Positions 1,602 to 64,000 of a DNA stretch of 64,000 nt are shown in pieces. The notes below the pieces were generated by a model. The model did not search any database, was not told the origin of the DNA, and saw only the letters and a list, made by a program, of their open reading frames with translations. The DNA is taken from positions 34,631,102-34,695,101 of the forward strand of contig NC_134850.1 in assembly GCF_965363235.1 (NCBI RefSeq). Direction: 5' to 3'. The translations under genes and the position numbers were made by a program. Within the stretch, counting starts at the first letter, position 1. Each line of letters opens with the position of its first letter. The stretch comes from Mytilus galloprovincialis (lineage: Eukaryota > Mollusca > Bivalvia > Mytilida > Mytilidae).

Positions 1602-4600
1602 CTGCGTGAAGGCCCTAAAAACAATGATTTGAAAAAAAAACATGACAAGATGAGGACATAAAATAGATAATATCGAAAATGTTGCCTGCTGTACCCAAAT
1701 TTTGACATTTTAATCTACTATGTCTGTTTGATATGCTGTCATTATTGGCAGTATAATGTAGTACCAATTAACAATTTCGCTGGCTTTATGACCAGCTGTT
1801 GTCTGCAATTTTCTACATAGAGTATTGCATGTACCAATTCAGGAATGAGACATTTGTATTATATTTGTTTGATGTGTTTTAGCTTTTGATTTAAAAAGGA
1901 CTATACAGGTGTGCTGGTGGTTTTTACCACAGGGGTTGTGTATGCGTCTAGTGCAGTGGTAGAGTTAATACTCTATCACTGCCGCTGGCTAACTCACTTG
2001 TGGGTGAAAAGAAAGTCGAATGTGTAAATCTTTCCTGCCAGTACAAAGCCTCTATACTATCCAAGACTTCTACAGTGCCACCTCGCGACAGCACACGGTA
2101 ACTAGGTTTTATTATCCTAGGCGTCATCTGTAGAGGATCTCGGAGATGCAGTGTATAGGCCCTCCAGCGTGTGGACACGCCCTAGCACTCATCGTCCTTG
2201 CCTCAGCTATTGGTCATATAGTATCACTGCCTTGTGATTGGATTCTTGAATCAAAGGCTATGGAAGTAAATCCAGACAGAAAATCCAGGTAGATGGAACT
2301 CGATAGCAACAGCAATCGTCTAAGGGATGGAAACCCCTACAGAAAAGCTGCCGGTTCTCCGGGCACAGGGGGTTAAGCGTAGTAATCACCTTGCCTTGGA
2401 AAAATATATTGATTACAGAAACGACTAGATACACGTGGGAGGTTTGCTAGTCAGAAAAAAAGTTTCAAACCGCCGCTTATCTCTTAAAATGTCCAGTACC
2501 AAATCAAGAATTTGGCACTTGTTATCAAATAGTCCGTGTTCATGTGTGCGTTCAGATTTTGTGAAGCAGTGGTTCTGTTGTTCTGCTGTTGTCCTCGGTT
2601 TTGGCTAGTAACCCGGACTTAGTTCAGTTAAACCTATTTATGACTAGTGAACTGCGGTGTACTACTATTGCCTGTATTAAGCATAATTATGGGTTTTTTT
2701 CTAGACCGAGTTAAAAGGAAAATATACGAACGGAATGACATAAAAAAGTTCAGAACATTTCTGTAAATAGTTAGCAATGAGGTAAGCAAATGATAATCTA
2801 GAATATCAAAAGTTTCCTTTTCAAATATTTAACATATTTGTTTATCAAATCCAAGAATTTTGTCATCAATATATATATATTAAGATCGGAAATATTTATA
2901 GGAAAAAAATTGAGGTTGAACTCATTTACAAACTTCTAAGTGCCAAAGCAAATATATTTTCTGAATTGTGTTTGAATTTCGGTTGAAACATTATGAAAGC
3001 TAACAAAATAAATATATAAGGTTTCGAAACTAGTTATATTATTATATTAAGTTATTACTTATTCAATCTTCTAAGCCTGTCTTGCACTAGTGGAGCAGTT
3101 TGCCAGCTGTTAGCAGTATTTTCTAATATAACGCATCCAACAAGAATATGATGAATTCGAATCTACAATCAAATAAAAAAACACACATCAGTAGAAACAA
3201 TGGAAGACGATTCAATGAAGCATCTAGCTTATTATAGAACAACACTAGGTTAATAGGTTTAATAGTTCTGTGAAGGATCGATGTGCAGTTTTATGGAACG
3301 TTCATCACGGTGCAGTTCGGTGTATCCACGCACAGACCTTTGACATCACTTTATTAAACTCATAAAACAAATAATCGGATAACATTGTGTGACGAAATTC
3401 ATATCATACTTTTTTTCAAAATATCTCCTGTATGTATTATTTTTAATCTAAAAGTTTTGTATTAGAAGTGTTTAAAATTAGGGAAACACCTGCTACGAGA
3501 GTTCTATCAATGTTCGGTGGTATTGCGCATGCCTTCTAAAAAAACATATTTTGAATAAAGAACAGATTGTGTGCTACAAAATGTAGTTGAATTTGAACCA
3601 AATAGACTGCCGAGGATGCAGAGCAAAAGTAATTAATCTGATTACTTTTGATATCAATGAAACAAATTAGTTAAGATAATGCGTTTTTGATGGAAATTGG
3701 CTAAATATGGTTAATCATGTGATTGTAGTTTTAAATGTACTCTTGAACCAAATCAATTGGAATCTTTTCTGTCCCTTCAAAATACTAAAATAATCGAAAG
3801 AACGTTTCTATTTGTGTAACATTGCCAATATGACGAAATCACGTAATGCACGACATCACCAGACGGGCAGATACCAGGGACTCCACTGTCATTGAAATTT
3901 ATTCAAATCCTATATTTGTAACAATATTGGTAATGACGTCAAATAAACAAACACAATTTTTATCTACGCAGCATATATCCAAAGTATTGGCAAATTCTTG
4001 AGTGACAATACCAGGATAACTTTGATGCAGTTTTATCAACCAAAAAGTAAAATAACATATATTATACAAAATAAAACAGAAACAATTATAATATTCTATA
4101 CGCATATGTATAAAAACAGAGAATCGTGGTATGATTAAATTAGATTTGATTTGATTTTTGTTATTTTAACGTCACTTTTAAGCACTCGGAGAAAACCACC
4201 GACCTTCGATAGGAAACCTGACAATCCTAATCAATTACGATTCGAGTCGAGTGCACCCGCAGTAGACCACTCGGCCTCTGAAGCCCCTGGTATGATTAAA
4301 GATAAGACTACTAATTAAAAGGCAATTATAAGAACGGTTGAAGGTTATCCTATAATCTTTATCAATTAGAAAAACTAACACCAAAACTGTAGCAGTAAGA
4401 ATGTTTTTAGTCTCTATTGCATGATTTTTTTATTATTCATTGACTTTGGCTTTCAGCAACTTTCATTTCAGACCGCCGTTCGAAGACAAAACTAGTATCT
4501 GTAATACGAAAATAACGAGGTCAAATTTGTCATCCGTCATGGGTTAAAAACGACAAATCAAAGCATTCAAATTTATATATAGCTAATATAGAAATGGTCT

Positions 4601-7600
4601 TGATTAAAAATTACACCACTCCAGACCCTTTTGTTTTCCTCATAATTAATATTGCCAATAATTAACAAGTTCCGGGTCTTATCCGATACCGATACCAATA
4701 CTATATTCACCTGTTATCTATTACCTTATCTGTACGTTCTGCATCTGACAGGCGCACCACTAAACGGTGTATTTAGGATTTTGCTATATACACTGGTCAT
4801 TATCACAGGGTTCACACTACTAAATTCAATCATTGTCAAATTGTTCCCTATTGTAGTATTTTGATAGGTAAAACTTTCTAAGATTACCATACGCATACTA
4901 AAAATCTGAACTTAAAATAAGGCGTATAGGTACAGTTTTCAATTTGTTATCGGGCATGACGCAAAACAGCGAATCAATGAATTCAACTTTATTTATAACT
5001 AACATAGGACAATGCTGTTGATAAAAAAATACTCCATTCCAGGACTTGATTTCCAAGTAATTAATATAACCAATGATTGATAAATTCCAAGTCGACGGTT
5101 TCAAACAGAAAGATTTTGAAAGCAGATAAAACTGTGCATCATATAATCGGCATGACTTTATCAGATGACAATACCAATACTAAAATAAGGCTTACGCATA
5201 GTTATATACTTTATTTCAGTCACGAACAGGCGATATAGCGGGTGTGTTCTAGTTTTTATTATTCGCATACACTTATCACTTACGCAGCCAGTTTCTATTA
5301 ACTGTTTTGCTCCATTCCAATACTGTTTTTGTAAAAGGGCCAAAAATATAAGGCCATACAATTCCGATATTGACACCTTCAGTTGCTTTGCTGCAAAATA
5401 AATGACTTCATTATACATATAACTGTTTATAACATTTTTACATAGATTTTGATTTCGTAATTATTGCAAAAGGATATATTTAATTTAAATATTGACTCAC
5501 AAGAAATTAACATAGATCAAAATGTATTCACCTCTCTATTCATTCCCTTGTCACCATCTTATGGTGTTTATATATCTCAACTTGTACGATTCGCTCGTGT
5601 ATGTAACAACGTATTAGATTTTAGCGAGATAAAGTTATGTATTACTGAAAAATTATTACACAATTGTTTTCGATAGCACAAACTAGTCAAAACATTTACC
5701 AAATTTTATTATCGGTACAGGGAAATAATTCGTAAATATAACTAAACATGCAGACATCTTATACGTTCTGGTATTTCACATCCAATATGTTGTGGTAATA
5801 TTCTTTACAAGGCACAAAAATGTCAGTATTTACCCTAAAAGCTAACCAAACCTTTAAAAAACTTAGTAAGAAGGGATATAGTTACGATAGTGTTGTCAGG
5901 TCATTAAAGATTGCATAGTTTGCTTAAATATTGATACACTTAAAGGATCTTTGCATCGGAGTTAAATACATTTATTCTAAGACCAGTTGTTGGCATGAGA
6001 CGTGTTATGTTAGTCTCATATATTTTATGATGATATAATACTAAACCCCTAACAAGAGGGATTATGCTTGGTATTCATATGATGAAAACACAATCTTTCA
6101 ATCAGTTTAATTGAGGTCTGGAGCTGGCATGTCAGTAACTGCTAGAAGTCTGTTGTTATTTATGTATTATTGTCAATTTATTTATTTTCTTTTGTTTCAT
6201 ATTCTGACATCGGACTTGGAATTCTCTTTAACTGAGTTTTACTGTGCGTATTGTTGTGCGTTTGTTTTTCTACATTGGCTAGCGGTATAGGGAGAGGGTC
6301 GTGATCTAAAAAAAAAACAGTTTAAAACCGCTGCAATTGTTCGCCTGTCCGGAGTCAGGAGCCTCTGGCCTTTGTAAGTCTGGTATTTATTTTAATTCTA
6401 GTTTCTTGTCTTTAATTCGGAGTTTAGTATGACGTCAATTATCACTAAACTAGTATGCATATTTATTTAGGGGCCAGCTAAAGGGGAGTTTCTCGCTACA
6501 TTGAAGACCCATTTGTGGCCTTCGGTTGTTGTTGCTTTGACACATTTCCCATTTCCATTCTCATTTTTATTCAATATCGATTATACTTTTATGGTACCGT
6601 TTATTTGATTACTACCACTGGGTCGACGGTTGGTAGACTCCCTCATGCAAATGCAAAGCTCTGATTCCCTGTCTAGCTTCGGCAACACTTTTTGGTCCTT
6701 TTTTGGTTGATAGCTTTTCGAATTTTTAATAAGCTTAGGATTTTCAAATATAATGGCCTCGAGCATCACTGAAGAGTCATTGATTGTCGAAATACGCATC
6801 TGGTACAGACAAAAATGGTACCGTTTATATTATTAATTGTACTTGTTTAGAAAAAAAGACTGTAATCGACATAAACATGATAAATCAGTTGTCAATACGT
6901 TATGTTTGTCTCAACTCAATAGCGGCATGTTTTTTCAGTCTAAAAACTTTATACACCAAAACAATAATCTAATCTGTAAGTTAACCAATATGTCCTATAA
7001 TACCTGATTTTAACATTTTCACTAAGTGTGGATTAGAATGTTGGCTGTTGATCATGTTGATACCAGTTGAAAACTTTGAATTACGTTTTGAACTCCTCGT
7101 TTATCTAAATCGGATGTTTTTCTTCATTAAACATGTTATAAGCACAACTACAACTGCAAAATCAGTTTTCTTCCGAAAAGACTAAGTATAATTTGGTGTC
7201 AATTGTTCATCTTTTAAGAGTGTTTTTTTTTTTTTTGAGAACCAACTGTTGATGGTTACTGTAAGAATACTGTAAGTTTTGTTGGTATGGTACCGTTTCC
7301 ATTGTCAAAACAGTCTCAAAATGGCATCAAGTTCATAAAAGTCAAACATAATGCAAGATTGTTTACAATATATCAGTAATACTAATATAATTAGTATGGA
7401 TACTAGTCAAATATTAAACATAAACAGATGAGGATAATAGTACATATAGGCCGCCATACGATCGTCACAGAAAAGAAAAACCGAAAGTTGTTTTGTCAAT
7501 ATCTCAAAATTTCTAGATCTTGTCAAAAGGTAATCAATCATCAATTCGGTCGAAAATGTTATATACTAAGTGCTTGAATAACATGTATAACGGTCATGTC

Positions 7601-10600
7601 TAAAGAACTCACTAGTTCTTCTTCCTTCTGGCATGTCTGTCTGGCGATCGATTTCATCAACTGCAGTATCTTCAACATCACTATCATCATCGGAATCACT
7701 GTCGGTGCCAGGACTATAACCAAATCTTTGACGTTCTTCCTTTTCACCACGATCTACATTGTAGTTTGAAAAAGACATGAATTAATTTCTTATCATACTT
7801 TGAGTGAAATATCCCATTTAATTTTATAATGTTTTTTAGTTAGATAAACAGGCGATATCAAAATGGTGGTGATTGTTGAAATAAGGACACTCAAATATTA
7901 GATAATTGTAATTGGGGTCATATTACCTGTACGTTTGCTATATGTCATGTGCCTCGCAGTTCAGTAGTTATGAAACACTAACAGGAAATATGAGCCCATA
8001 AACTTTGTGACGATTGCGTATACCGGTACTTTTTAATTTAAACTTAATATTTCAATGTTTTCTGTATAACTGTAAACGCATTCATGCATGACTGTTATGG
8101 TTACGCTTCTCCGATAAAATGTTGAGATTTTTTTATTCTGTATAGATAGGGTCCTTTGGTTTACAATCTTCCTAATGTAAAAAGATAATGGCTTTTTGAT
8201 CATTATGTATTAATTTTGAATAGTTATTATCACAATATAACTGATTTTTATTCGAAATAATGAAAGTGTTCAACTTATTATCAAATGTATTATAACAGAA
8301 AATAGGTTCCAATTTTTTTATGATTTAAATTTTGACCAATTTTGTCATAAACTATATTTCTGATTGGATTTGAAAGTTTGAGGTTTAAACACAATGGTGA
8401 AAATATGCATAAGTGTTTTCTTAGTAGTTCGTTGACAAATTTCAAAAATATTTCTGTCTGTAGAGTGATTGTTCATATCTGGTTAATTTTAGAATGCCTA
8501 TTATAATAATATTTTATAATACCAGTCATTCTTGGAGATCTAAAGGCCATATTTGTGTCATTTTGCAATTCTAACCACAATCCATGTTTAAAATCAGCTT
8601 CCATATCCTGTCCAAAAGAAAAACAACACTTTTTTTATTGTGAAACAATAACAAATTGAAAACATGTTCAAAATGTAAACTGATCGACACTTGGGTTTTT
8701 TTTAAAGTACATAGCTTGCATTAGTATTAGTTTATAACAAGGGCATATATCTTGACAAGAGATGCTTATGATAATCTAAGTTGTTTTTTAAGTGATTACA
8801 TTAGACAAAGTTGTGTATTTAAAACATAATAAAAAAAAATGCGTGCATTACACAGTTAAGCAGAACTCTGTCTTGTTGATATATTTTTAGTGCATTACAT
8901 TATTGTATGATTTTAAATAATAAATCTTCATAGATATATACCAAGATTAAAATTTTGTACACCAGTCGTGCAATCCGTCTATAAACGATTCGACAGTGAT
9001 GATCGAATAAAAATAGAAAAAAAGGCAAAATAAAGTATGATATTGAAATGAAGGTAGAAACTCATTGGTAATTAGAAAATGTAAATCTTCGAAACAGTAC
9101 CTACTTGTATTTGTCAGTTTTAAAGCATTTAAGCATCACATTCACATTACATGTGTGTGTATCATGCAATTCAATCAACCAAAGGTTAAACAAGCACGAG
9201 AAATGGAAATGTAATACATATTCAGTAATATTATTGGTTTGCTCCCTGCATACTCTTCATTAACCAGTCATTTTGCTACCTCAGCTATTTTCATTTAGGC
9301 AAAGACTGAGCTATCCCATTTGAATATTTAGGATTCAAATCAGTTGTATTCTAAATTAAAATAAACTTAGAATTGAGCAATGTGCAAACGAAACAAATTG
9401 TGAATTCTTTGTGTTGTCTGTATGTTCTTGTAACTTTTTTTCAAGTTGTATATATGTATATACCTTCTCGTAAATGTACTCGATTGATCTTTGATTAAAC
9501 GACTTCGTTATATGTTCTTTTGGAATCTTCCATTTCCCTTCTTTTAAAAGGTACATTGATAATGCATTCGGATACATATCAGTGTATTTCCCCTGAAATG
9601 AACGCATTTACATTTAATAAAATACAAAATGATGGTTGTTTTTTAAATCAAGTTCAAATAAGTTGCAATTTGTTTAGTTCTTTCAATTCCAAATTGCTCT
9701 TTATACATGACACAAACATGTTACAAATGTAGGTACAGGAGACAAATTAAAAAGTTACTTAATTACATATTACTGTCCTTACTTATTGATATCATATGTG
9801 GTACCAAATTTTCTGCACCAGATGCGCATTTCGACAATAAATGACCCTTGAGTGATTCTTGCTGCCACGTGTTTACTTTTACAAATTGTGACTTGAATGA
9901 CGTTTTATCTCATTGGTACCACATCTTCGAATATCTAATTATTATATTTATGTCTAATGTTGTTTTTTTATGCCTTTATGGTATTTGTCTTTTGATAATA
10001 AATGTATCTTTTGTCTTCAGAATTAAATGTGTTAAAATAAAAAATGATTTGATTGTCAATGTACATGATGTAAACTGTCATTCTGAATACTAGAAACTTA
10101 TTTTGTCAAAGATATTAATATTTTGGGGTGTTTTATTAAAATGCACATATTTCTAGACTGTTATTGATGATGAAAACCTTCATCTTGTTAATTCCAAAAT
10201 GAACTTTGCCATCGAATGGTAAAGAAAATTAAAGCATTTCATGAAGCATGAATATCATAATACAGAACTTCTAAAGGCAGCCTTTCAGACTTTTGAGAAT
10301 AACCCATGACATAAGGGGAGATTGAATTGTAAATGGTTTGATTCTAAATTCAATTTTAAAGAGGAAAACTCTTATTTCAATATTCTGTTCATTTTGTTAA
10401 TTTCAAAAAGGCCTTTTTATATACATAGATTCATGCAGAGTATACATTTCATCAGTTGACAAATTATTTATCAGGAAAGTTGTATTCTATTAACAAATGC
10501 ATGCATACAAATGACCCATATGTATGCATAAATTTCAAAAATAAATGTTTCAGGCATAGATGTGAAACTAAGTAATGTTAAGGCAATGTTTCCTACAATT

Positions 10601-13600: not shown

Positions 13601-16576
13601 GTTTCATAATTGAATAGTTTCACATTTTTTATGTCGAGCCTTCTATACCCCAATTTACGATTTGTTTGTTTTAATTTTTGAAGGTTCAAACGGTTGCTTA
13701 TATTTGCTTTCATCTATTGCAGTTCAAGTTTGGCGGATAATCCTAACATTGTCAATCATACCACATCTCTTTATTTTCAAAAAGACACACACCCATGCCA
13801 CCTATTTCAAATTCGTCACAATTTTAAACAATATTTGAGTTTGACGTTTATTATAGATAACTGATACCATCAGATATATCGATGCAAACATTAATTTTCC
13901 ATGTAACACTAGAAAAGAACATTGGTGTTATTTTGAATATTCAGACTTTTAACGTTTTATCACATGACTTTTAAAATCATCTTGCATACCCCCGATTATT
14001 AAACAGCATATTATAGCATCGAAGTTATCCTTGAAGTCAGATGGACCCTCTGAGATGAATGCTATTTCGTCTGGATAATTCTCCTTATCATAGCGTCCTA
14101 TATCATAACACTTTGGTTTCGATTTCTGGACACTCCATGGATTCTTTACGTTTGTAACATGTTCTGTCATCTCAACTGAACTACCATAGTTAGTAAACTT
14201 CACGGGTGTCAAAACAGTCACATCAAATGAATGTTTCTAAAATGATATAAAATATTTTCAAATTCCCGTTGAGACTTCTTGATCTACATGATAACAGTTG
14301 TTATCCTTCAAAATAATAGACTTCTCGGTTGATTTAATGGCACAACAAATCTAGTAAAGTGCAACACATACACGCGTACGCATCATGTACATTTGTAATC
14401 GAATTATGACGTTGCTTATGGAAAACGTCAATTAGATATTACAGCAACGATCGAAAATTATTGGGTGGTGGGATTTTTTGCAAGTGGTTCTACGGTTTTC
14501 TATTACGTTGCGTTCGAAAAGGCAAAAATCAAGGCAACGATCAGAAATTTTTGGCGAGAGTGATTCTACGGTTTTCTATTTAGTGAGAAAAAAAGTATAA
14601 GAATGATAAACCTATGAAACACATGATATCATTTTTATAAAGTATAGAAATTAAACATTTACTCTACTAGTTTTAAGAGGACAAACAGCAAAACACATTT
14701 AATCATTAAATACGGCTGAATTTTTTTTACATCAGTATATGAACAGAAATATAAAGGCTTTTGAAAAAGAGGCTGATGATATGAAGGGGTCAATCAAATA
14801 GCATAAATCGAAGATAAATTGACAATGTCATTACAACATGAAAAAATCTAATCAGCAATATATATTCGTTACCTTAAATCGAATTATCGGTATATGAGAT
14901 TTTGCAGCACTGCTCATCACTGGTTTCCGAAATGCCCCTTTTCTTAGTGAAATGATGACTGGCAAAACTGTTTCTCCGTAAACATCTGTGTAATATTGAG
15001 AGTATTATATGTATGTGCATAAATCGAGTGACCAAAAAAATGAATTAAAAGCTTAAAAACACATAGAAGTGTAATTCATTTTCAAGGGTTTTCCATATTA
15101 AGCAAAGTTGAAACCCAACTTTACTATTTTGCTCTACACTCAACATAATGTGACCATTAAATGCATCTACTGTTTATCAATAAAGGCAACAGTAGTATAC
15201 TTATGTTCAAAAGTAATAAATTGATTCGGAAAATAAAATCTTGCTCACAAACCCGATAGCCAGTGACACACATCAATGACAACATGATATTAACGGAACA
15301 ACAAAAACACTGGACTGCAACAAAAACAAACGTCCACATACATAGAAACGGACAATATGATACCAACTGTCATATTCCGTATTTAATACAGGATATACAT
15401 CCAATGTGATGATATATGAAGTTGATATTTTCCTTCATTTATGAAAATACTAACATTCTGCCATTCGTTGAAAATATTGAATATCGTCCTCATCTTTTTC
15501 AACATCCCCCCGTTCAAACAGTTTGAATCCTTTTTTAACAAGTTCCTAAAAATGAAACAAATAGGAGCATTTAGTTAGAATATATAATAAGATTTCTTGT
15601 TGTTTTTTTTTAAAGGTACGTGATTAGTTTCTCTTGTTCTGTTCGATTCTAGTTTTATAAAAAAAAACAAAAAAAAAAACACCTTTAATAATTTCTTGCG
15701 TCCGAAGAGCTTTTCTGGATTTACCTTCATCAGGAACGCTCAAATCAAAGCCAAACATTTGAAATCTGAAGATGTATAAATACCGAAACCGTTGAAGAGC
15801 TATATGTTAAAAATATCTAAAATAAATCGCCAAATTCATCTAAAACCAACTTTGCCTGAGGGAGTTGAAACCTTAGTTTCTTAATAATTTCTAAATCTAT
15901 ATATGGACAATTTTATAAAGTGATGATGCGTTTTCAAACATTTTCTTAATTTATATTTTTAAAGATTTCGAAATCATATACCAAATGATTTGTCGACATG
16001 TTGAGAAATCAAAACGAAATTTCTGATATCAAACTGGCGAGATAAAACAATACAATCAGAACAAAATTATATTGACCTTATACGAAAAAGTGGAAGACAT
16101 GATAAGTTACACTACAAACCAGTAAAAGTTTGAAATGGCCTATATCTGTACTCGACCGTACTGATTTTTACCCGACCAGTCTAAATTGGTCTTAAATTTA
16201 CTTGATACTACTCGACTGTAGTCTGAACCATACTTAATAGTCTGAACTTGTACTTGACCTTTACTCCTCGACCAGTACTTAACCATTCAAAACGCGTCTG
16301 AACCATGCTCAACCTAGTCTGAACCATACTCGACCTAGTCTGCACCATACTCGACTTGGTCTGAACCATACTCGAGTAAGTCTTAATCAAACTAGACCTA
16401 TTTTTTTGTATCTATCTATTGTTTTTTATCAATCTAGGAATTGGTCCAATGACAGCTTACCCCCGTAAGTAAAAAATTGGACAAAAATTTGAAATTCAAA
16501 ATGTATTCAATATGGGATTTAAACCAAAGTTTCAGAATAAACATAATATTACTTGAACTCGGTATTCGCTAATACT

Positions 16577-28600: not shown

Positions 28601-31600
28601 CCGATCTAAATGCATCAATCTTCTTGTCCAGAAGCTTTTGAACGATACCTTTATTCAATTAAAAAACACCTTTTTGATTGGTCATCATTTTGATTTCTAA
28701 CATGGTTTTATAAAGGGAGGGTAAATCGATGTATGTATTCATGAATGTAAGGATTCTCGAGGAGTCAAGCGAAGAAATAAATTAAGGAGACGGCGTAAAA
28801 TAATGATTGTACACCGTACATCTTTATCATATCGTTTGAAACACTCAGCTCAACAGTAATACACATGCAGAGCATATATATATTATATCATACACAAACA
28901 AATATGTTCACCTTATTGTTTTTGTGTTTTTCAGAGAATTCCCAAATAATTTTTTTTATCATATTTCGGTTTAATGTCTAAAATTCATGCAACAGGTAGA
29001 GACTTGAAAATACGCAACACAATTAGGCAACGGATTCATAATCTTAATCTTGTTTTGGTTAAAGTGTCAGATTGCTAACTTTTATTTCATTGTTTCAAAT
29101 AAAGTGAGACTATGACAACGTATTTGTTTGTGTTGAATAAATTTTAATCATGTGAAAATACGCAACACAATTAGATAACGGATTCATATAAATGAAAAGA
29201 CTCGTATAATAGTTATAAAAGGTACCAGGCTTATAATTTAATACGCCATACGCTCGTTTCGTATACATAAGACTCATCATCAAAAAAGTTATAAAGCCAA
29301 ACAAGTGCAACCTATTTGAAATAAGTAAGAAGTTTAAAAAAATGTTCAAAGCTGTTCAATTATTAGTTTACAATTCATTTTGATACAAGCGACTTGTCTG
29401 ATGCTAACCTTTCTGTTTCAATGACAAAAAAAGAGAGTCGCCAAACTGAAAACCAGAAGTTAATATTTTTTCTTTATTTTTTCCGACAAAAATGGAAGTT
29501 CGCTTATAGTCATCATTACTGAACTGGCTGTCGCATTTAGCTTTGTGTATAGATAATGACAATGTTTGACGATCATTGGAGATTTCCCGTGATTGATACA
29601 TTTTGTTTGCTTAGTCTTGTTGGTTGAAAGGAATCATTGTTTTGAAAAAATGGGTAGACAAGCGATGTTCCATGTTCAAATTATCCCGCCAAAGAGCTAC
29701 TAAATGTCCACACTGTCTTTTCAAAGTGGTATTTTAAAATTTTATTAATATAAAATTAAAATTCTGCCTGTCTATCTCACCCTCGTGTTTATCATCACTT
29801 CGAAGTTTAACCGTTGCACCTTTTCCAATTCCAATTGCCGCAGTATAATCCTCTAGACCAGTTCTTGACATCATCTGCTCGCTATAAAAAAATATGTGAG
29901 GTTGCATTATTTATCAAATATAGGTTTAACAATTTGATTAGAAAACCAGTTTTGCAAAACAGTTATAGGAGTTTTCAAGAGATTTCACTTGATGATCACA
30001 ATTTCCACTGACATTTTGTTCAAAAATGTTAGATTTGATAACATTTGTCGTTACTAATTGGTTGTTCATTGTTAACTTTTGGTTATGGCATGTTTATATT
30101 AGAACCAATACTTTCTAAGCTTGACCATGAAAATCAGATGTTTTAGTAGTTGACTTGTCAAAATGATATGATAAATAAAGATAGATATATTTTGTTGTTT
30201 TTTTGGTTAATTTTGTAAACGATTACTTTAATTATTGGAAAAAACTCACCCCTTTGCATTTTCACTTTGGATTCTTTTAAATCTATGACCATTAAAGTCA
30301 TGTTCATCGTCCATATAACAGCGCGTGCATAGGTCATAATTTTCACAATTACGACATTTCCATCTTATTCCCCTTAAAGGATGTTCTTTGCATCCATCAC
30401 ACTGTACATGAGAATGCATAACACCTAAATGATATAAATTTTTTATGAAAAATTTTACACTGAATAATTTCTCACAGAACAATAGATTTACCGAATGTTT
30501 GTAAATTTCGCCTTGCCTACACCATGTACACATGCAATACAAATAAAGAATGCTTTCATTGTTTACTGTTTGAAGGCTTTATATATATTTTTTTTCTGTC
30601 TATGAAGAAATAACAACAAGAATGTGGTGCACCCTGAATAACCAGTGTAGCGGGTTATTGTTAAGTGTGCACCACATTATTTATGTTATTTCGAATAGGC
30701 AGAAAAAATATTACAGTCATTCCTTATAATTTAATTCTAAATTATATTGTTAGCTGGATTTAATCATGAAAAAACGTTGATGAAGTCATGGTCACATGAT
30801 GAAACTATGTCTATGAGCTGATTAACTAAACAACGTCAGCTAATCAGAAGACGCTTTGCATCATGACTTAAATTATATTGAAATGCAATTCTTACGGGAA
30901 TCATATTTAGCACGTATATCTTTTTCCCCAGTTATAAACCTGAAATTCTACATTTTATTGACCATGGGCACTATATAATTGATTAAAATATCGTAAGCAT
31001 TGTTATGGCAATTACGCACCTTAAAAGTATAGATTGTATATACTAGGCCAGTGGTAGATATAACTGCAAATCACGCCTGCACACTTTATTCTCTAAGCGT
31101 ATTTGCGATCTAATAGATGATATCAGACCTACATTGATATTTTTTTTTTGTATAACTCATTAAAGTATTAAATTGTGTTGGATTGTTTTTAAATGATACG
31201 ATGGAAATAAGTAGGTTTACCTATTTGCGCATTGTCTAATAAAAGAAGATCATATTGACCATTATCTCCTTTTTCACATGTTTCAATACCATTCGACGAG
31301 TCCCATTGGACCTTGACAACACCACCTTTTGCAACATTGATAATAGTACCAATTTCACGATCTTCCTTATCATGCATATAGTCTTTTGGCGGAATCCATG
31401 ATCGTGATCGTATTACTCGAAGTCCTGATTTGATTTTTTCTAAGTAAAACAAACAAGTATTACTATAAAGTTTAAAAACATGTGCCAAGCCGTACAAAAA
31501 AAGCTACAGTAGTATTACTAGCATGCTCAAAAGAACACATAATTCTATGTTGTTAAAGTCTTATAAAACCGCAAATAAAAAAAAATGCCAATGTTTTTTA

Positions 31601-37062: not shown

Positions 37063-38756
37063 CTCGACAGGTGCACACTATGAAATGTTTATCCCAGCAT
37101 GCTAAATATGAAATAAAATGTTGCATATGTTTCTGAGAAATTTATACATAATAATAAATGAATACTTGATTCTGGAAAAGTACTTCACTGAACGGATACT
37201 TATATGATGATTCGATCTTAAATATATTATACTTTATTCCCAGCCTTGGTAGATCAGCTATCTTTCCGTTGACTGTTTGATTTAACATTAAAATACAATT
37301 CACTTGTTTTCTTGATTTTACTTGTACATGTATACATGCTATACATGTATATAGTGTACGTGCGAACTCGTAGCCAGGGACAAATGTACATGATGTAGTA
37401 CATTTTGAGATCTTATACTTTATATTTTCAAACATACATAAAGTAGTCAACCATACACAACAATGAATTTTCCATATATGATTTCAACAAACGGTTCAAG
37501 ACTGCAAAACATGTGTTCTTATCAAAACCATTGATTAACGGCAAAAACACGTAATTTCTTTCTTTTACATTACATTACGTTACATCCACTGATGCCAACG
37601 GCCGAAAGTATATATCAGTTTTTCAAAAGTCAATTAAACCACATATTTACCGAAACAAAAGACAGTAATTATTGTATTCCATATTCCGAGAGAAATGTAT
37701 GTAATGGCAATTATTTACCAAAACTAATTGTACAAAAAACGTTTACCAAAATTATGCACGTAAAAACACGCGACGTTTTGTGCGATGAATATTCTTTTTT
37801 CGCAGGTGAATATGCTTATTTATTCAAAATCCCATTCATATAGAAAAACCATCAAAAATTCTTATAAATATGGAATAACAATCTTTATTTTCTTGATCCG
37901 CAAATTCAATGTGACTCCTATGCTGAAAAACACAGGTGTTTTACTTTTTGTCGAGGTAATATCTAATGATTCATTTGTACTAACTTTACATATGCATGGT
38001 ATCTTTTTTATTAGTTGATTTAATATTTTTCCGTACAAGGGTATATATGCTTAAATGACTCGCGTGCTAAACGGACAATGATTTATTTTATGTTGAAAGT
38101 TGACGTTTTAAATACAAGTATCGCATACACGTTACCATAATTAAATATCCATGTAAATAAGGTCATGGTCAAATGAACCCTACCCGACTGTTCATAGTAT
38201 CCATTACACTACGTAATCGTATTCGCCAAACCAGTCATTGACTACTAAAGCAGGCAAAAGTGACAAGGACAAATGAATCCTCCAAGATATTATTATTTTA
38301 TAATCATTAGAAGCACTAAATACAGTTGACATATTACTTATGGTATCTACGATACAGATCACGAAACAGAAGCTTATCATAGAAAAATGAACACACCTTG
38401 TTGTTTCGTTATTGAAATACGGAATAACTCATATTTCTAAAAATAAATGGATAAAACTAAATGCACATGCATACATTTCAGAATATGTACATCTCAAAAA
38501 TTCTCAGTTTATGAAATATTATAATTTGATCTACCTAATCCATATAACAATCGAATGCCTTGTTAACAATCATGGTATTGTTAACTTACAAATCTCTATT
38601 AACACATTGATGGTCGTTAATTTCTAGTAATACTGAAAGTTTTTTTGTTTTTTTGTTAAATCTAAATGAAATGTTTGATTCTTTTATCTCAACATAACAA
38701 ATCTTTACCTTCGCAGTTAAGCACACCCAAAGTACATTGTTATCAGTTACAAGTTA

Positions 38757-38965
38757 AACAATACAAGTAACACAATAAACAATACAACTGACAGAATAAA
38801 CAATACAAGTAACATGATACACAATACAAGTAACATAATAAACAATACAAGTAACAGAATTAACAATACAAGAAACAGGATAAACAATACAAGTAACAGA
38901 ATAAACAATACAAATGGATAATAGACAATGAAAATTACAGGATGGACGATACAAGTAACATAATA
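38757..38965 (+). repeat. 21-bp tandem repeat
   Basis: About ten units of ACAATACAAGTAACAnAATAA in a row, with scattered substitutions. This is a plain minisatellite. Confidence 0.85.
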
Positions 38966-38999
38966 GACAATAATTTCAGGCCCTTTTATAGCTGACTAT

Positions 39000-42279: not shown

Positions 42280-42322
42280 GCGTCACTGATGAGTCTTATG
42301 TAGACGAAAAGCGGTCTAGCGT
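42280..42322 (+). ncRNA. Hammerhead ribozyme (CTGATGA subfamily)
   Basis: GCGTCA, then CTGATGA, a stem II GTC-TTATGTA-GAC, then GAAA, AGCGGTC and TAGCGT. The catalytic core is intact, but helix III is shortened and helix I has one mismatch compared with what pairing would demand. Cleavage would follow GGTC at 42316. Activity is doubtful. Confidence 0.65.
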
Positions 42323-42681: not shown

Positions 42682-43270
42682 AAAAAGGAGTAGGTCCGGT
42701 AAGGGCCAATTTTGGCCTCAAATTTCAGGTTCATCTAACGAAAGTTTTTGGACACTTTTTAAACACTGAAGTGTGTATTTCAATTGATTCGATTAGTTAA
42801 TGTGAAAGATTTTAACTGATTTAGTCATTAAAAACGCTCTGATTCAAGCTTAAATATGAAAAATCTATCAAATATGCCAAAAAACGTCACTTTTTAGATG
42901 GTTTTTGTCAAAAATGAATGTGGCTGCATCCGTGTTCATCCTCAACCTTTATATATGTTTTGTATTATCATCAAATACAACTTACATTTCAATATTAGGA
43001 ATGAACACGAATGCGGCCACTTTCATTTTAGACGGAAACCGTCTAAAAATTGACCAAATGCTAAAAAGTTTAAGATTTCAGTAATTTAGCATGACTTAAT
43101 GATGCTAGAACGCGATATTTGTGCATTTTATCGTCAAAAGCAGCTCATATTTATGTAGCAGAAGCATTTTACTTTCCAAAATATAGCTTAAAGATTACAT
43201 TTTCACAATTTTCGAAAACTGCTATATTTTGGGGCCAAAAAGGGGTCTTAGTGAACCTACTCCTTTTCTC
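42682..43270. mobile_element. MITE with AAAAGGAGTAGGT inverted ends
   Basis: AAAAAGGAGTAGGTCC at the left faces CCTACTCCTTTTCTC at the right, followed inward by GGCCAATTTTGGCC-like and GGGGCCAAAAAGGGG blocks. TAAGG flanks both sides and may be the target duplication. The ~590-bp interior is non-coding. It includes a partly self-complementary stretch (AATGTGGCTGCATCCGTGTT / AACACGAATGCGGCCACTTT). Confidence 0.6.
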
Positions 43271-56744: not shown

Positions 56745-57663
56745 AAATAAAACTAAAGACAAGACTGAGCAACAAACCCTATCACAAACTTTGTGATCGC
56801 TGATGCTCTTAACTAAAAACTGGACAAAAAATCCAATAAATAGATGTGACCTCAAAATGCTCGAATGTTCTAAACTTAAGACTGCGAAAAAAAAACATCC
56901 CGAATTTTGTGTGATTTTAGATGTTCTACACTTAAATGAGAACAACAATCCCTACAAGATCTTGGTTTGCTCTCAGATGCTTTAAACTAATGTTTGAGCA
57001 ACAAATCCGACCAAGAACGTGGTGTAATCGCAAGTGCTCTGAACTAAAAACTGGAATATATTGCCATCTAGAATTTGGTGTGATCTCAGATGTTCTGAAC
57101 TAAAGACTAAAAAAACAAACCCCTTCAAGCACGTGGTGTGATTTCACATTCACTGATCTAAAAACTAAAAAAGGAAAACCATCAAGAACTTGGTGTGATC
57201 TCATATGCTCTGAAATATCGACAGAAAAACAAATCCCATCAATATATTGGTATGATCTGTCTCAAATGTTTTAATTAAAGACTTAAAAGCAAAACCCATC
57301 AAGGTATTGGTGTGATCACACATGTCCTTACCAAAACACTGAAAAAAACCACCATCAAGGACTTGGTGTAATTTCATTTTCACTGAACTAAAAATTGAGA
57401 AACAAACCTAATCAAGTACTTGATGTGATCGCATACGCTCTGGACTTAAGACCGATAAACAAACCCCTTCAATAAATTGGTGTGATCTCAGATGTGTTAA
57501 CTAAGACCGATAAACAAACCCCTTCAATAAATTGGTGTGATCTCAGATGTGTTAACTAAAGATTGAGAAACAAATCCCATCAAGAACTTGGTGTGATCTC
57601 AGATGCTCTAAACTAAAGACTTAGAAGCAAATCCTATCAAGAACTTGGTGTGATGTCAGGTGC
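56745..57663 (+). repeat. 57-bp minisatellite, about 16 units
   Basis: Units follow TCAAGAACTTGGTGTGATCT, CAGATGCTCTGAACTAAAGA and CTnAnAAACAAACCCCA. Early units are diverged. Two neighbouring units at about 57447-57550 are almost identical, which points to a recent unit duplication. It has no coding continuity. Confidence 0.85.
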
Positions 57664-58844
57664 TTTGGAAGTAAATATTTATTTTACAAATTAGTGACAT
57701 TTTTTATGGATCATAGAACTTTATTTGCTTTGAAAATTTAAATTGTTATTAAAAAGTGGAATGTTAAAAGCGTGTGGTTAAAAAACGCTAGTTGAGGAAA
57801 ATATAAGATTAAAACTAATGTAAACTGAGAATTTCCAGTTGTAATTTAACGCCATTATTTCAATGAATATAAGCAGTTTTAGTGCCTTTTACAACGTAAA
57901 ACAAATTATAAATTAGCAATCATACCAAATGTTCTTTTTATATATAGCTCGTATTTCGTGTGCATAATTTGAACCTAGAAATTTAACACGATCCATGCCT
58001 TTTTAGCTACTCATGGTAAGAAAGTGTAGGACGATAGTCTATAGCTATCAAGTGACTCTCTTTCAAGGACTATTATAAATTGATACATTTGTACAGGCAT
58101 TTCCCTGAATTTGAAGATGTTTTACAGTATGGTTATAAATAAATTAGATCATGTTCAGTTGCAGACAAGATAATTTTGAAATTAGATTTTGGTTACTGCA
58201 TGTATCTATCGTGTATGTGTTACAACTTCAGAAGCCTTCAAGACGTTATAAATACCTCGATTGACTAAAATAATCATATCAAACGGCATGTGGCTTCTGC
58301 GCACCAGCTTCAAACGTCTATAATATGAGATGCTGCTAGGCTTCAAATCGAGGATTATGATTTATACGAACTAGATCGGATCCATCGCTTTCCAGATCTT
58401 GTAGTGAACTGAAGAATACGATGTTGGTTTTTTTTACAGAATTACACGATCATGCACAAGGCAAATTTTGATAACGAATACAGTAACTGTCTTGTTTCAA
58501 CCAAAGAATAGGCAATTGATATTACCTTAAATGATGAATAGCCCAAAAACATGTACATTATATCACAAAAATACTGTCAGAACTATATAAAGTCAAAACA
58601 AAACTTGAGTGACAATCATCTTACTTGTTTGTTTTATGAATGACACTATTTCGTAAAAGATGGGTGTCAAAAAAATCTATTTAGCATATCAAAGAAAGTG
58701 TACATATTTCCCTTACAGTTTCTTTATCAGCTGTAAAATCTGTTAAAGTTCGTGCCAGTTTTTTTATTTCTTAAGGTTGGCATATAACAATTGCAGAATT
58801 GTTACAAGAACTTAGACTTATCAAGAAAGTACATATGTTATTAA
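57664..58844. other. No gene or recognised repeat
   Basis: AT-rich sequence between the minisatellite and repeat X. Nothing supported was found on either strand. Confidence 0.4.
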
Positions 58845-59010
58845 ATAAAGGCAACAGTAGTATACCGCTGTTCGAAAGTCATAAATCGATTCACAGAAAA
58901 CGAATTCGGGTTACAAACTAAAACCGATGGAAAAACATCAACCATATATAAGAACACAACAACGTAACAACGAAGTGCAACACAAAACAAACGATAATAC
59001 AACATACACA
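58845..59010 (+). repeat. Dispersed repeat X, ~165-bp copy abutting the retrozyme array
   Basis: AATAAAGGCAACAGTAGTAT, ACCGCTGTTCGAAAGTCATA, GAATTCGGGTTACAAACTAA and AAGTGCAACACAAAAC. It ends where the array begins. Confidence 0.7.
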
Positions 59011-59235
59011 GGGCATCACCAGCCCAGTAGCCAGTACCGAACAAAAATACGGATTTTTTTGTGTTATTAAAATTTGCTGCCACAAAATAATAGAAATTAT
59101 TATAAATTAAGGAATCATTCTCCCTCATGCAAAGCTCTGATTCCTTCCACGGATTTGGCTATACTTTTTGAACTTTTTAAATTATAGCTCTTCATCTTTT
59201 ATATAAGCTTTGGAGTTCAAATATTTTGGCCACGA

Positions 59236-59279
59236 GCATCTCTGAAGAGACATGTATTGTCGAAATGCGCATCTGGTGC
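59236..59279 (+). ncRNA. Hammerhead ribozyme, array copy 1
   Basis: GCATCT, CTGAAGA, stem II GAC-ATGTATT-GTC, GAAA, helix III palindrome ATGCGCAT, C, then TGGTGC. The base just before the core is T instead of A, which removes one helix I pair. Confidence 0.8.
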
Positions 59280-59587
59280 AAGAAAATTGGTACCGTTAAT
59301 TTTATGACTACCACTTGGTCGATGCCTCTGCTGGTGGACTATTAGTCATCGAGGGTATCACCAGCCCCGTAGCCAGTACTTCGGTACCGGCATGATGAAA
59401 ATACGGATTTTTTGTGTTATTAAAATTTGCTGTTACAAAATGATAGAAATTATTATAAATTAAGGAATGTATCTCCCTCATGCAAGTTCTGATTCCTTCC
59501 ACGGATTTGGCTATACTTTTTGAACCTTTTGGATTATAGCTCTTCATCTTTTATATAAGCTTTGGAGTTCAAATATTTTGGCCACGA

Positions 59588-59631
59588 GCATCACTGAAGA
59601 GACATGTATAGTCGAAATGCGCATCTGGTGC
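59588..59631 (+). ncRNA. Hammerhead ribozyme, array copy 2 (consensus)
   Basis: Consensus copy. Helix I GCATCA pairs with TGGTGC (one G-U). The core is CTGAAGA, helix II GAC/GUC has loop ATGTATA, GAA follows, helix III is the self-complementary ATGCGCAT, and cleavage is after C at 59625. This is type I topology with a minimal helix III, as described for Penelope-like elements and animal retrozymes. Confidence 0.88.
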
Positions 59632-59937
59632 AAGAAAATTGGTACCGTTAATTTTATTACTACCACTGGGTCGATGCCTCTGCTGGTGGACTATTAGTCC
59701 CCGTGGTTATCACCAGCCCAGTAGCCAGTACTTCGGTACTGTCATGAAAATACGGATTTTTTGTGTTATTAAAATTTGCTGTTACAAAATGATAGAAATT
59801 ATTATAAATTAAGGAATGTATCTCCCTCATGCAAAGTTCTGATTCCTTCCACGGATTTGGCTATACTTTTTGAACCTTTTGGATTATAGCTCCTCGTCTT
59901 TTATATAAGCTTTGGAGTTCAAATATTTTGGCCACGA

Positions 59938-59981
59938 GCATCACTGAAGAGACATGTATAGTCGAAATGCGCATCTGGTGC
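59938..59981 (+). ncRNA. Hammerhead ribozyme, array copy 3
   Basis: Identical to copy 2 in all stems and core positions. Cleavage predicted after 59975. Confidence 0.87.
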
Positions 59982-60287
59982 AAGAAAATTGGTACCGTTA
60001 ATTTTATTACTACCACTGGGTCGATGCCTCTGCTGGTGGACTATTAGTCACCGAAGGTATCACCAGCCCAGTAGCCAGTACTTCGGTACTGGCATGAAAA
60101 CACGGATTGTTTGTGTTATTAAAATTTGCTGTTACAAAATGATAGAAATTATTATAAATTAAGGAATGTATCTCCCTCATGCAAAGCTCTGATTCCTTCC
60201 ACGGATTTGGCTATACTTTTTGAACCTTTTGGATTATAGCTCTTCATCTTTTATATAAGCTTTGGAGTTCAAATATTTTGGCCACGA

Positions 60288-60331
60288 GCATCACTGAAGA
60301 GACATGTATAGTCGAAATGCGCATCGGGTGC
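60288..60331 (+). ncRNA. Hammerhead ribozyme, array copy 4
   Basis: As copy 2, but the base after the cleavage site is G instead of T (GGGTGC), which disrupts the first helix I pair. Activity may be reduced. Confidence 0.8.
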
Positions 60332-60637
60332 AAGAAAATTGGTACCGTTGATTTTATTACTACCACTGGGTCGATGCCTCTGCTGGTGGACTATTAGTCC
60401 CCGAGGGTATCACCAGCCCAGTAGCCAGTACTACGGTACTGGCATGAAAATACGGATTGTTTGTGTTATTAAAATTTGCTGTTACAAAATGATAGAAATT
60501 ATAATAAATTAAGAAATGTATCTCCCTCATGCAAAGCTCTGATTCCTTCCACGGATTTGGCTATAGTTTTTGAACCTTTTGGATTATAGCTCTTCATCTT
60601 TTATATAAGCTTTGGAGTTCAAATATTTTGGCCAAGA

Positions 60638-60681
60638 GCATCACTGAAGAGACATGTATAGTCGAAATGCGCATCTGGTGC
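60638..60681 (+). ncRNA. Hammerhead ribozyme, array copy 5
   Basis: Core and stems as in copy 2. Only the upstream flank differs (CCAAGA instead of CCACGA). Confidence 0.87.
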
Positions 60682-60990
60682 AAGAAAATTGGTACCGTTA
60701 ATTTTATTACGACCACTGGGTCGATGCCTCTGCTGGTGGACTATTAGTCCCCGAGGGTATAACCAGCCCAGTAGCCAGTACTTCGGTACTGGCATGAAAA
60801 TACGGAGTTTTTGTGTTATTAAAATTTGCTGTTACAAAATGATAGAAATTATTATAAATTAAGGAATGTATCTCCCTCATGCAAAGCTCTGATTCCTTCC
60901 ACGGATTTGGATATACTTTTTGAACCTTTTGGATTATTATAGCTCTTCATCTTTTATATAAGCTTTTGAGTTCAAATATTTTGGCCAAGA

Positions 60991-61040
60991 GCATCACTGA
61001 AGAGACATGTACTAGTATTGTCGAAATGCGCATCTGGTGC
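60991..61040 (+). ncRNA. Hammerhead ribozyme, array copy 6, enlarged loop II
   Basis: Core and helices I and III are as in the consensus. Helix II is followed by a 6-nt longer loop (GAC ... ACTAGTATT GTC) that can extend the stem. Confidence 0.83.
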
Positions 61041-61225
61041 AAGAAAATTGGTACCATTAATTTTATTACTACCACTGGGTCGATGCCTCTGCTGGTGGAC
61101 TATTAGTCCCCGAAGGTATCACCAGCCCAGTAGCCAGTACTTCGGTACTGGCATGAAAATACGGATTGTTTGTGTTATTAAAATTTGCTGTTACAAAATG
61201 ATAGAAAATTATTATAAATTAAGGA

Positions 61226-61550
61226 AAAAGTAAAATCATAAAATTACTGAACTTAGAGGAAGATCAATTGGGAAAGTCCATAATCACATGGCAAAATCAA
61301 ATAACAAAACGCATCAAAAACGAATGGACAAAAACTGTCATATTCCTGACTTGGTGCAGGCATTTTCAAATGTAGAAAATGGTGGATTAAACCTGGTTCT
61401 ATAGCGCTAACCCTCTCACTTTAATGACAGTCTCCTCAATTTCCGATATTTTTACATTGATGCGTTAAATAAACAGACACAATAAATATAATAGTCAAAA
61501 TATGGGTACATCAGTCATCATCGTTTAACAATTTTAAAAGGCTGAGAATG
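61226..61550 (+). repeat. 325-bp dispersed repeat inserted in the retrozyme array
   Basis: Starts about GTAAAATCATAAAATTACTG and contains AGTCCATAATCACATGGCAA, GTCATATTCCTGACTTGGTG, GTGGATTAAACCTGGTTCTA and ATATGGGTACATCAGTCATC. It is a recurrent mussel repeat that probably belongs to a larger retroelement tail. It separates array units 6 and 7 and may have replaced most of a unit. Confidence 0.65.
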
Positions 61551-61669
61551 TATCTCCCTCATGCAAAGCTCTGATTCCTTCCACGGATTTGGATATACTT
61601 TTTGAACCTTTTGGATTATAGCTCTTCATCTTTTATATAAGCTTTGGAGTTCAAATATTGTGGCCAAGA

Positions 61670-61713
61670 GCATCACTGAAGAGACATGTATTGTCGAAAT
61701 GCGCATCTGGTGC
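61670..61713 (+). ncRNA. Hammerhead ribozyme, array copy 7
   Basis: Core, helix I and helix III match the consensus. Loop II is ATGTATT. Cleavage predicted after 61707. Confidence 0.87.
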
Positions 61714-62019
61714 AAGAAAATTGGTACCGTTAATTTTATTACTACCACTGGGTCGATGCCTCTGCTGGTGGACTAATAGTCCCCGAGGGTATCACCAGCC
61801 CAGTAGCCAGTACTTCGGTACTGGCATGAAAATACGGATTTTTTGTGTTATTAAAATTTGCTGTTACAAACTGATAGAAATTATTATAAATTAAGGAATG
61901 TATCTCCCTCATGCAAAGCTCTAATTCCTTCCACAGATTTGGCTATTCTTTTTGAACCTTTTGGATTATAGCTCTTCATCTTTTATATAAGCTTTGGAGT
62001 TCAAATATTTTAGCCACGA

Positions 62020-62063
62020 GCATCACTGAAGATACATGTATTGTCGAAATGCGCATCTGGTGC
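62020..62063 (+). ncRNA. Hammerhead ribozyme, array copy 8 (terminal)
   Basis: Core CTGAAGA, then TACATGTATTGTC: the first helix II base is T instead of G, so the closing pair is lost. Helices I and III are intact. The unit breaks off at about 62090. Confidence 0.8.
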
Positions 62064-62169
62064 AAGAAAATTGGTACCGTTAATTTTATTATACACAGAA
62101 ACGAACTATGACTTGATACAGGACATTTTAAGAAAAATGGTAGGTTAAACATGGTTATGTGGCACATGA

Positions 62170-63816: not shown

Positions 63817-64000
63817 ACAAAGGTACCAGGATAATAATGTAATACTATGCGTTTCGTCTACATAAGACTCATCAATTACGCTCAGATCAAAATAGTTATA
63901 AAGCCAAACAATAACAAAGTTGAAGAGGACCCAAAATTCAAAAAAGTTGTGCCAAATTAAGCTAAGGTTTTCTATTCCTGGGATAAGAAAAATACTTCTT
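63817..64000 (-). mobile_element. Hammerhead-bearing repeat (CTGATGA subfamily), edge copy
   Basis: On the minus strand it carries the same order as 41586-42355: AAGTATTTTTCTTATCCCAG, GGCACAACTTTTTTGAATTT, TTTGGCTTTATAACTATTTT, GATCTGAGCGTAATTGATGA, then GTAGACGAAACGC and CCTGGTACC. Core C is T and the 3' half of the ribozyme (63840-63885) is altered, so it is probably inactive. It runs off the right edge. Confidence 0.65.

Follow-up and report, generated by a model that had tools for sequence, protein, structure and literature searches.

Type I hammerheads of Mytilus galloprovincialis, approximately 5000 in number, were described by Cervera and de la Pena in 2020 as two similar families residing in ~350-390-bp repeats, according to the passages of that paper which treat the mussel (PMC7229834). 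In the same passages the mussel repeats are reported to cleave in vitro at a rate near 0.1 per minute and their circles to be abundant by northern blotting; Penelope-like elements are put forward there as retrozyme helpers (PMC7229834). The corresponding section of a 2020 review gives the same retrozyme model (PMC7761336). Work in vitro on a Penelope-like element from the green anole showed fixed internal starts of reverse transcription in an AC-rich stem loop beyond the hammerhead; the starts coincide with the ends of genomic copies (PMC11167929).

The locus described here lies at 59012-62090 on the forward strand of a 64-kb window, by which we mean the whole stretch of DNA that was analyzed. 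It consists of a 350-bp unit in a head-to-tail array carrying eight hammerhead cores, and we consider that it probably represents a metazoan non-LTR retrozyme copied into the genome, a reading that includes the copying mechanism proposed below.

59012..62090, + strand: 350-bp units in tandem, ~7.9 of them when the insertion is discounted (Tandem Repeats Finder, BLAST, unit comparison)
61227..61546, + strand: 320-bp insertion within one array unit, partly similar to 1679-1892 (- strand)

The ~350-bp head-to-tail unit of the initial annotation was borne out by two methods. Tandem Repeats Finder called an array at 59044-62091 with a period of 350 and 8.8 copies, a copy figure that is too high because the 320-bp foreign insertion is counted in; without the insertion the array measures 2759 bp. 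A BLAST search of one unit against the window returned an unbroken chain of copies over 59010-62091, with a single interruption at 61227-61546, where no clear target repeat was visible by eye around the inserted sequence. Full units share 95.1-98.0% pairwise identity, and the partial first unit is 91.9-92.8% identical to them. "Must be recent", as the initial annotation put it, is a strong wording for units that stand 2-5% apart. The G+C content of six array monomers is 0.38-0.39, in a window of ~29-35%, and the array is non-coding, being without any open reading frame (ORF) of at least 110 aa (stop to stop). Other tandem arrays in the window comprise ~14 copies of a 57-bp unit at 56865-57664 and two different arrays of 21-bp units at 38755-38972 and 16296-16400.

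All eight expected places in the array carry the core CTGAAGA...GAAATGCGCATC, a type I hammerhead by motif, as the initial annotation had claimed. We take CTGAAGA to be CUGANGA with A at the variable position 7.

59236..59279, + strand: hammerhead core 1, helix I pair adjoining the core lost (T.T)
59588..59631, + strand: hammerhead core 2, helices I, II (3 bp) and III fully paired
59938..59981, + strand: hammerhead core 3, fully paired
60288..60331, + strand: hammerhead core 4, helix I pair adjoining the core lost (A.G)
60638..60681, + strand: hammerhead core 5, fully paired
60991..61040, + strand: hammerhead core 6, loop II with 6 extra nt
61670..61713, + strand: hammerhead core 7, fully paired, helix II of 4 bp, dimer fold a double hammerhead
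62020..62063, + strand: hammerhead core 8, first helix II pair lost

The eight places follow the pattern GCATCA-CTGAAGA-(helix II)-GAAA-TGCGCA-TC-TGGTGC, exactly or with small deviations, with helix I formed by GCATCA/TGGTGC and cores that read CTGAAGA...GAAA...ATC. Helix III had been called a bare palindrome, and ATGCGCAT is indeed present in 8/8 cores. The further claim that all three helices can be drawn with the GCATCA/TGGTGC flanks holds for the four complete cores (59588, 59938, 60638 and 61670, each having six pairs in helix I, three in helix II and the palindrome) and for one more, 60991, whose loop II is enlarged by 6 nt. The remaining three are each one pair short: all six helix I pairs are standard in 6/8 cores, the pair adjoining the core being lost at 59236 and 60288, and the first helix II pair is lost at 62020. 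A T to A change common to cores 2-5 removes the fourth helix II pair.

The Rfam hammerhead scan that had been suggested as a check gave a divided result. In a 4.4-kb search, Hammerhead_1 (RF00163) matched four of the eight cores, three of which scored 31.4 bits (E 5.4e-5) and the fourth 26.5 bits (E 0.0023), all below the gathering score of 34. No hammerhead was matched in the whole window at gathering thresholds, none was listed for the whole 64 kb at E up to 1, and none was listed in a 481-base search across cores 61670 and 62020, though 61670 is fully paired. We suppose that the missing listings in the 64-kb and 481-base searches are an effect of the search filters. Covariation was also considered as proof of a hammerhead and was set aside, the sequences being too few and too similar: 92% of cells pair, and both-sided change occurs in 2/13 pairs, both in the copy at 42280, a level reached by 34/500 and 39/500 shuffles.

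Folded singly with their flanks, five of five cores were no better than shuffles (z -0.5 to 1.3), and helices I and II both appeared in the best fold of one of the five (61655-61735). Because helix III consists of a loopless palindrome of eight bases, a single core can form at most two pairs around a GCGC loop; across two cores, pairing over all eight bases is possible. Two strands of core 61670 fold best as a double hammerhead, at -35.9 kcal/mol as compared to -12.1 per single strand (2 x -12.1), where dimer and single-core energies alike ignore tertiary contacts. With the exception of 60991, the remaining cores were treated likewise; in these six, the double hammerhead as drawn lay 9.4-13.7 kcal/mol above the best dimer fold, and at 59938, the sole structure printed among the six, the best dimer structure was not a double hammerhead. 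Monomer circles have 60-66% of their bases paired and exceed shuffles in fold stability by a small margin (z -0.2 to -2.0 in 6/7 monomers). Dimeric cleavage by hammerheads with a weak helix III has been published for newt and viroid, in the passages of PMC6155905 that deal with such molecules.

Both ends of the array directly abut a copy of the 8-bp sequence ATACACAG, and a direct repeat of at least 8 at the array spacing arose in 59/20000 random pairs of points. The flanks run directly into another repeat.

59004..59011, + strand: left 8-bp direct repeat ATACACAG, putative target-site duplication
62091..62098, + strand: right 8-bp direct repeat ATACACAG, putative target-site duplication
58834..58998, + strand: left flank, belonging to a dispersed repeat that recurs in the window as six other partial copies
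62109..62150, + strand: right flank, resembles the continuation of one host-repeat copy (2440-2690, - strand)

The partial copies of this dispersed host repeat are found at 27002-26834, 15171, 40548, 44934, 2678 and 24012. The right flank recurs in one of the six (2690-2200, - strand), which scores 41 where the best of 100 shuffles reached 37, a match equalled by 0/3000 random stretches. By similarity scoring against shuffles it was undetectable in 5/6 copies, namely that at 15171 and four others. The 15171 copy aligns straight over the empty site, and its 25 nt beyond the junction are equalled by 100/3000 random stretches. On these alignments we take the array to be nested inside an older dispersed repeat, because of the 8-bp direct repeat, which is the stronger evidence, with the empty site in support. 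Elsewhere in the window, a long inverted repeat at 42893-43045 with a weak microRNA-model match on both strands is probably a small palindromic transposon.

These ends bear on the principal alternative, an ordinary satellite in which one or two units were inserted once and later grew by unequal crossing-over, the hammerheads being relics without a present role. The variation among units speaks partly for it. Seven variants are shared between units, and four of the seven lie in neighboring units, from which it follows that some exchange between units took place after insertion. The partial first unit is richer in substitutions (13/226 vs 49/2536, Fisher p 0.0012), as at array edges that escape exchange, although some of the 13 adjoin a deletion and may be alignment effects. 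Additionally, three of the eight cores have lost a pair adjoining the core or at the base of helix II. Against growth as a satellite, 44 of the 51 substitution variants are private to one unit, and the clean array ends together with the direct repeat indicate that an element did insert. The variants form a near star, the pattern to be expected of units that arose at one time and later underwent some exchange. We regard the satellite explanation as unlikely.

A different origin would make the array the tandem-repeat core of a larger DNA transposon, for example of pearl or Helitron type, and not a retroelement. Elements of these types with central tandem repeats do occur in bivalves. Here, however, both flanks are a repeat whose other copies lack the array, and the direct repeat falls exactly at the array ends, which leaves this origin very improbable. 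Slightly less probable still is an origin as the remains of a pseudo-LTR from an autonomous Penelope-like element, since the type I hammerheads and tandem layout that the 2020 review, in the sections concerned, gives as common to such elements (PMC7761336) stand against ~eight complete 350-bp units with no coding sequence and no ORF of at least 110 aa in the array, and against a six-bp helix I and full palindromic helix III where the Penelope hammerheads of that review are minimal and without helix III (PMC7761336).

Returning to the retrozyme reading, the scattered decayed copies that had been claimed elsewhere in the window are also present, three of them by BLAST (6763, + strand; 9858, - strand; 42280, + strand) and two of weaker standing (63881 and 9002). 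A model built from eleven window cores recovered those eleven by construction and two outside it, at 63881-63837 (- strand, 23.1 bits) and 9002-8959 (- strand, 22.4 bits), with rough E values of 3e-4 and 5e-4.

6592..6835, + strand: decayed element copy, core 6763-6806, 155-nt internal gap (BLAST, core model)
9815..9858, - strand: decayed single hammerhead core (core model)
42280..42322, + strand: decayed second-family core, CTGATGA, GTC/GAC helix II (Rfam, core model)
63837..63881, - strand: weak hammerhead-like core, resembles the 42280 core (core model)
8959..9002, - strand: weak, broken hammerhead-like core (core model)

Two of these, the single cores at 42280-42322 (+ strand) and 63837-63881 (- strand), belong to a second hammerhead family (CTGATGA/TTGATGA, GTCTTATGTAGAC helix II). 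Both hammerhead families are thus present in one 64-kb window. Hammerhead_3 matched the 42280 copy weakly, by the tail end of the model (18.0 bits and E 0.09, against a cut-off of 48.5).

The array and its scattered relatives end alike on the 3' side. After the predicted cut of its last core the array continues for 33 nt and then gives way at once to the target repeat, and the copy at 6592-6835 ends no more than one or two bases from this position in the unit. The latter has a possible 9-bp target repeat with 8/9 bases matching, which is weak, being equalled in 73/3000 random pairs. In the single copies at 9858 (- strand), 42280 (+ strand), 63881 (- strand) and 9002 (- strand), the resemblance to the unit, and among the copies themselves, has ceased by 15 nt after TGGTACC, a motif that ends 21-28 nt past the cut position in these copies. 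In all, the loss of similarity falls within 15 nt after TGGTACC at six loci, namely the array and five others with single copies, with exact 3' ends established for the array and the 6592-6835 copy and inexact ends for the other four. When the tails more than 15 nt past TGGTACC were compared among the six loci and the unit, the lowest shuffle counts in 21 comparisons were 8/200 and 10/200. The 5' extents differ: ~7.9 units for the array, at least 125 nt upstream of the 6763 core plus a separate piece at 6592-6626, and ~76 nt at 63881, with nothing above chance upstream of the 9858, 42280 and 9002 cores. If ends fell evenly over the 306 other unit positions, the odds of five more lying within 16 positions would be near 4e-7, a figure to be taken as rough, since the comparison spans two families, the position of four ends is inexact and every copy was found through its hammerhead.

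Shortly beyond this end point, the array units are predicted to form a very stable hairpin domain.

60015..60093, + strand: stable two-hairpin domain, one example of those repeated in the units (fold, z -4.2)
61747..61825, + strand: two-hairpin domain in a later unit (fold, z -4.7)

In the predicted fold the domain begins 7 nt past the insertion end point of the array, and its second hairpin carries a UUCG loop. All three units folded gave a stable domain (z -4.2, -4.7 and -3.8; 1, 0 and 0 of 200 shuffles as good). The insertion end point precedes the AC-rich ACTACCAC at the foot of this domain. Coincident 3' ends before ACTACCAC are the pattern that would be expected from fixed-point priming on a circle, and the six loci in this one window fit reverse transcription of a circular RNA from one fixed internal point over several laps. 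As a general proposal, animal retrozymes may integrate by target-primed reverse transcription from a fixed point past the hammerhead, beside a helper-recognised hairpin and with a variable number of laps; we offer this tentatively and judge it to fall somewhat short of an even chance. The main texts and passages searched yielded no statement of fixed internal priming for retrozymes.

From the units, the eight cores, the direct repeat, the nesting in another repeat, the coincident 3' ends of six loci and the predicted hairpin domain, we infer cleavage, circles, fixed-point priming and a helper as steps of the copying mechanism. A read-through transcript would be cut after ATC in every unit, possibly aided by the ATGCGCAT palindromes of two units pairing into a double hammerhead. 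The 350-nt pieces would be closed into circles by a host ligase, and another element would provide the reverse transcriptase. Copying would start at a fixed internal point ~33 nt past the cut, just before the stable hairpin domain, and proceed for ~eight laps round the circle into a nicked target. The product would be a concatemer whose 3' end is fixed and whose 5' end is arbitrary, flanked by an 8-bp duplication of the target.

The retrozyme interpretation put forward in the initial annotation gains support from several features by which metazoan non-LTR retrozymes are recognized: a type I hammerhead in every unit, tandem repeats of 150-450 bp (350 bp here), non-coding sequence (no ORF of at least 110 aa) with a G+C content below 50% (38-39%) and a target duplication longer than 4 bp, here the direct repeat. 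On its sequence the locus fits this kind, and it adds one more example to an already published class. No reverse transcriptase was read among the six window ORFs of at least 110 aa, none of which lies in the array, and an ORF with the reverse transcriptase and GIY-YIG endonuclease of Penelope-like elements was thus not seen among them. Pfam searches on 4/6 of these ORFs matched only a ZZ zinc finger and a weak B-box; the ORF at 30246-30578 (- strand) with the ZZ-type zinc finger (E 9.3e-13) is probably an exon. An internal Pol III promoter was considered and rejected: the B-box-like GGGTCGATGCC in the unit is equalled in 150/2000 shuffles, and a B-box with an A box at fitting distance in 138/2000. 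Such a promoter is further disfavored because T runs of 4-5 in the unit would stop Pol III. Exact unit patterns found no match in viral and other genome contig collections, nor did BLAST against phages, results that say little as the collections are without animal genomes. Short sequences of the unit were not found printed in the literature searched.

Should the coincident 3' ends hold genome-wide, a question left by the published work would become one that can be settled, namely which enzyme turns the circles of retrozymes back into DNA and what primes it. If the fixed-point reading is true, Penelope-like elements with an internal reverse transcription start would be the likely helper, and each array would directly record its number of laps.

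Among known systems, the non-LTR retrozymes of Mytilus galloprovincialis are matched in their type I hammerhead tandem repeats, in unit length (350 bp here vs 350-390 bp) and in low G+C, as given in the published passages on these repeats (PMC7229834). The two similar hammerhead families described there also have a counterpart in the two families of the window, a comparison made by description (PMC7229834). Fixed 3' ends are not among the features that these passages describe for published loci (PMC7229834), and the insertion anatomy is what the present locus adds beyond the published class. Plant LTR retrozymes share tandem hammerheads, published circular RNA and a non-autonomous nature with the array. 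They differ, in the sections of both papers that describe them, by type III hammerheads in LTRs, ~700-bp units and 4-bp duplications (PMC7229834, PMC7761336), whereas the array has an open helix I, matches the type I model and combines a 350-bp unit with an 8-bp repeat. As compared to Penelope-like elements, the array encodes no protein and shows no second start (tail) (PMC11167929). In the Anolis element the cut lies at +26 and the start at +111-118, while the 3' end of the array falls ~33 nt past the predicted cut (PMC11167929). With the Penelope-like elements of Frangieh et al. 2024 the array nonetheless has in common the tandem layout and a hammerhead upstream of a fixed internal start, putative in the array, that becomes the genomic 3' end (PMC11167929).
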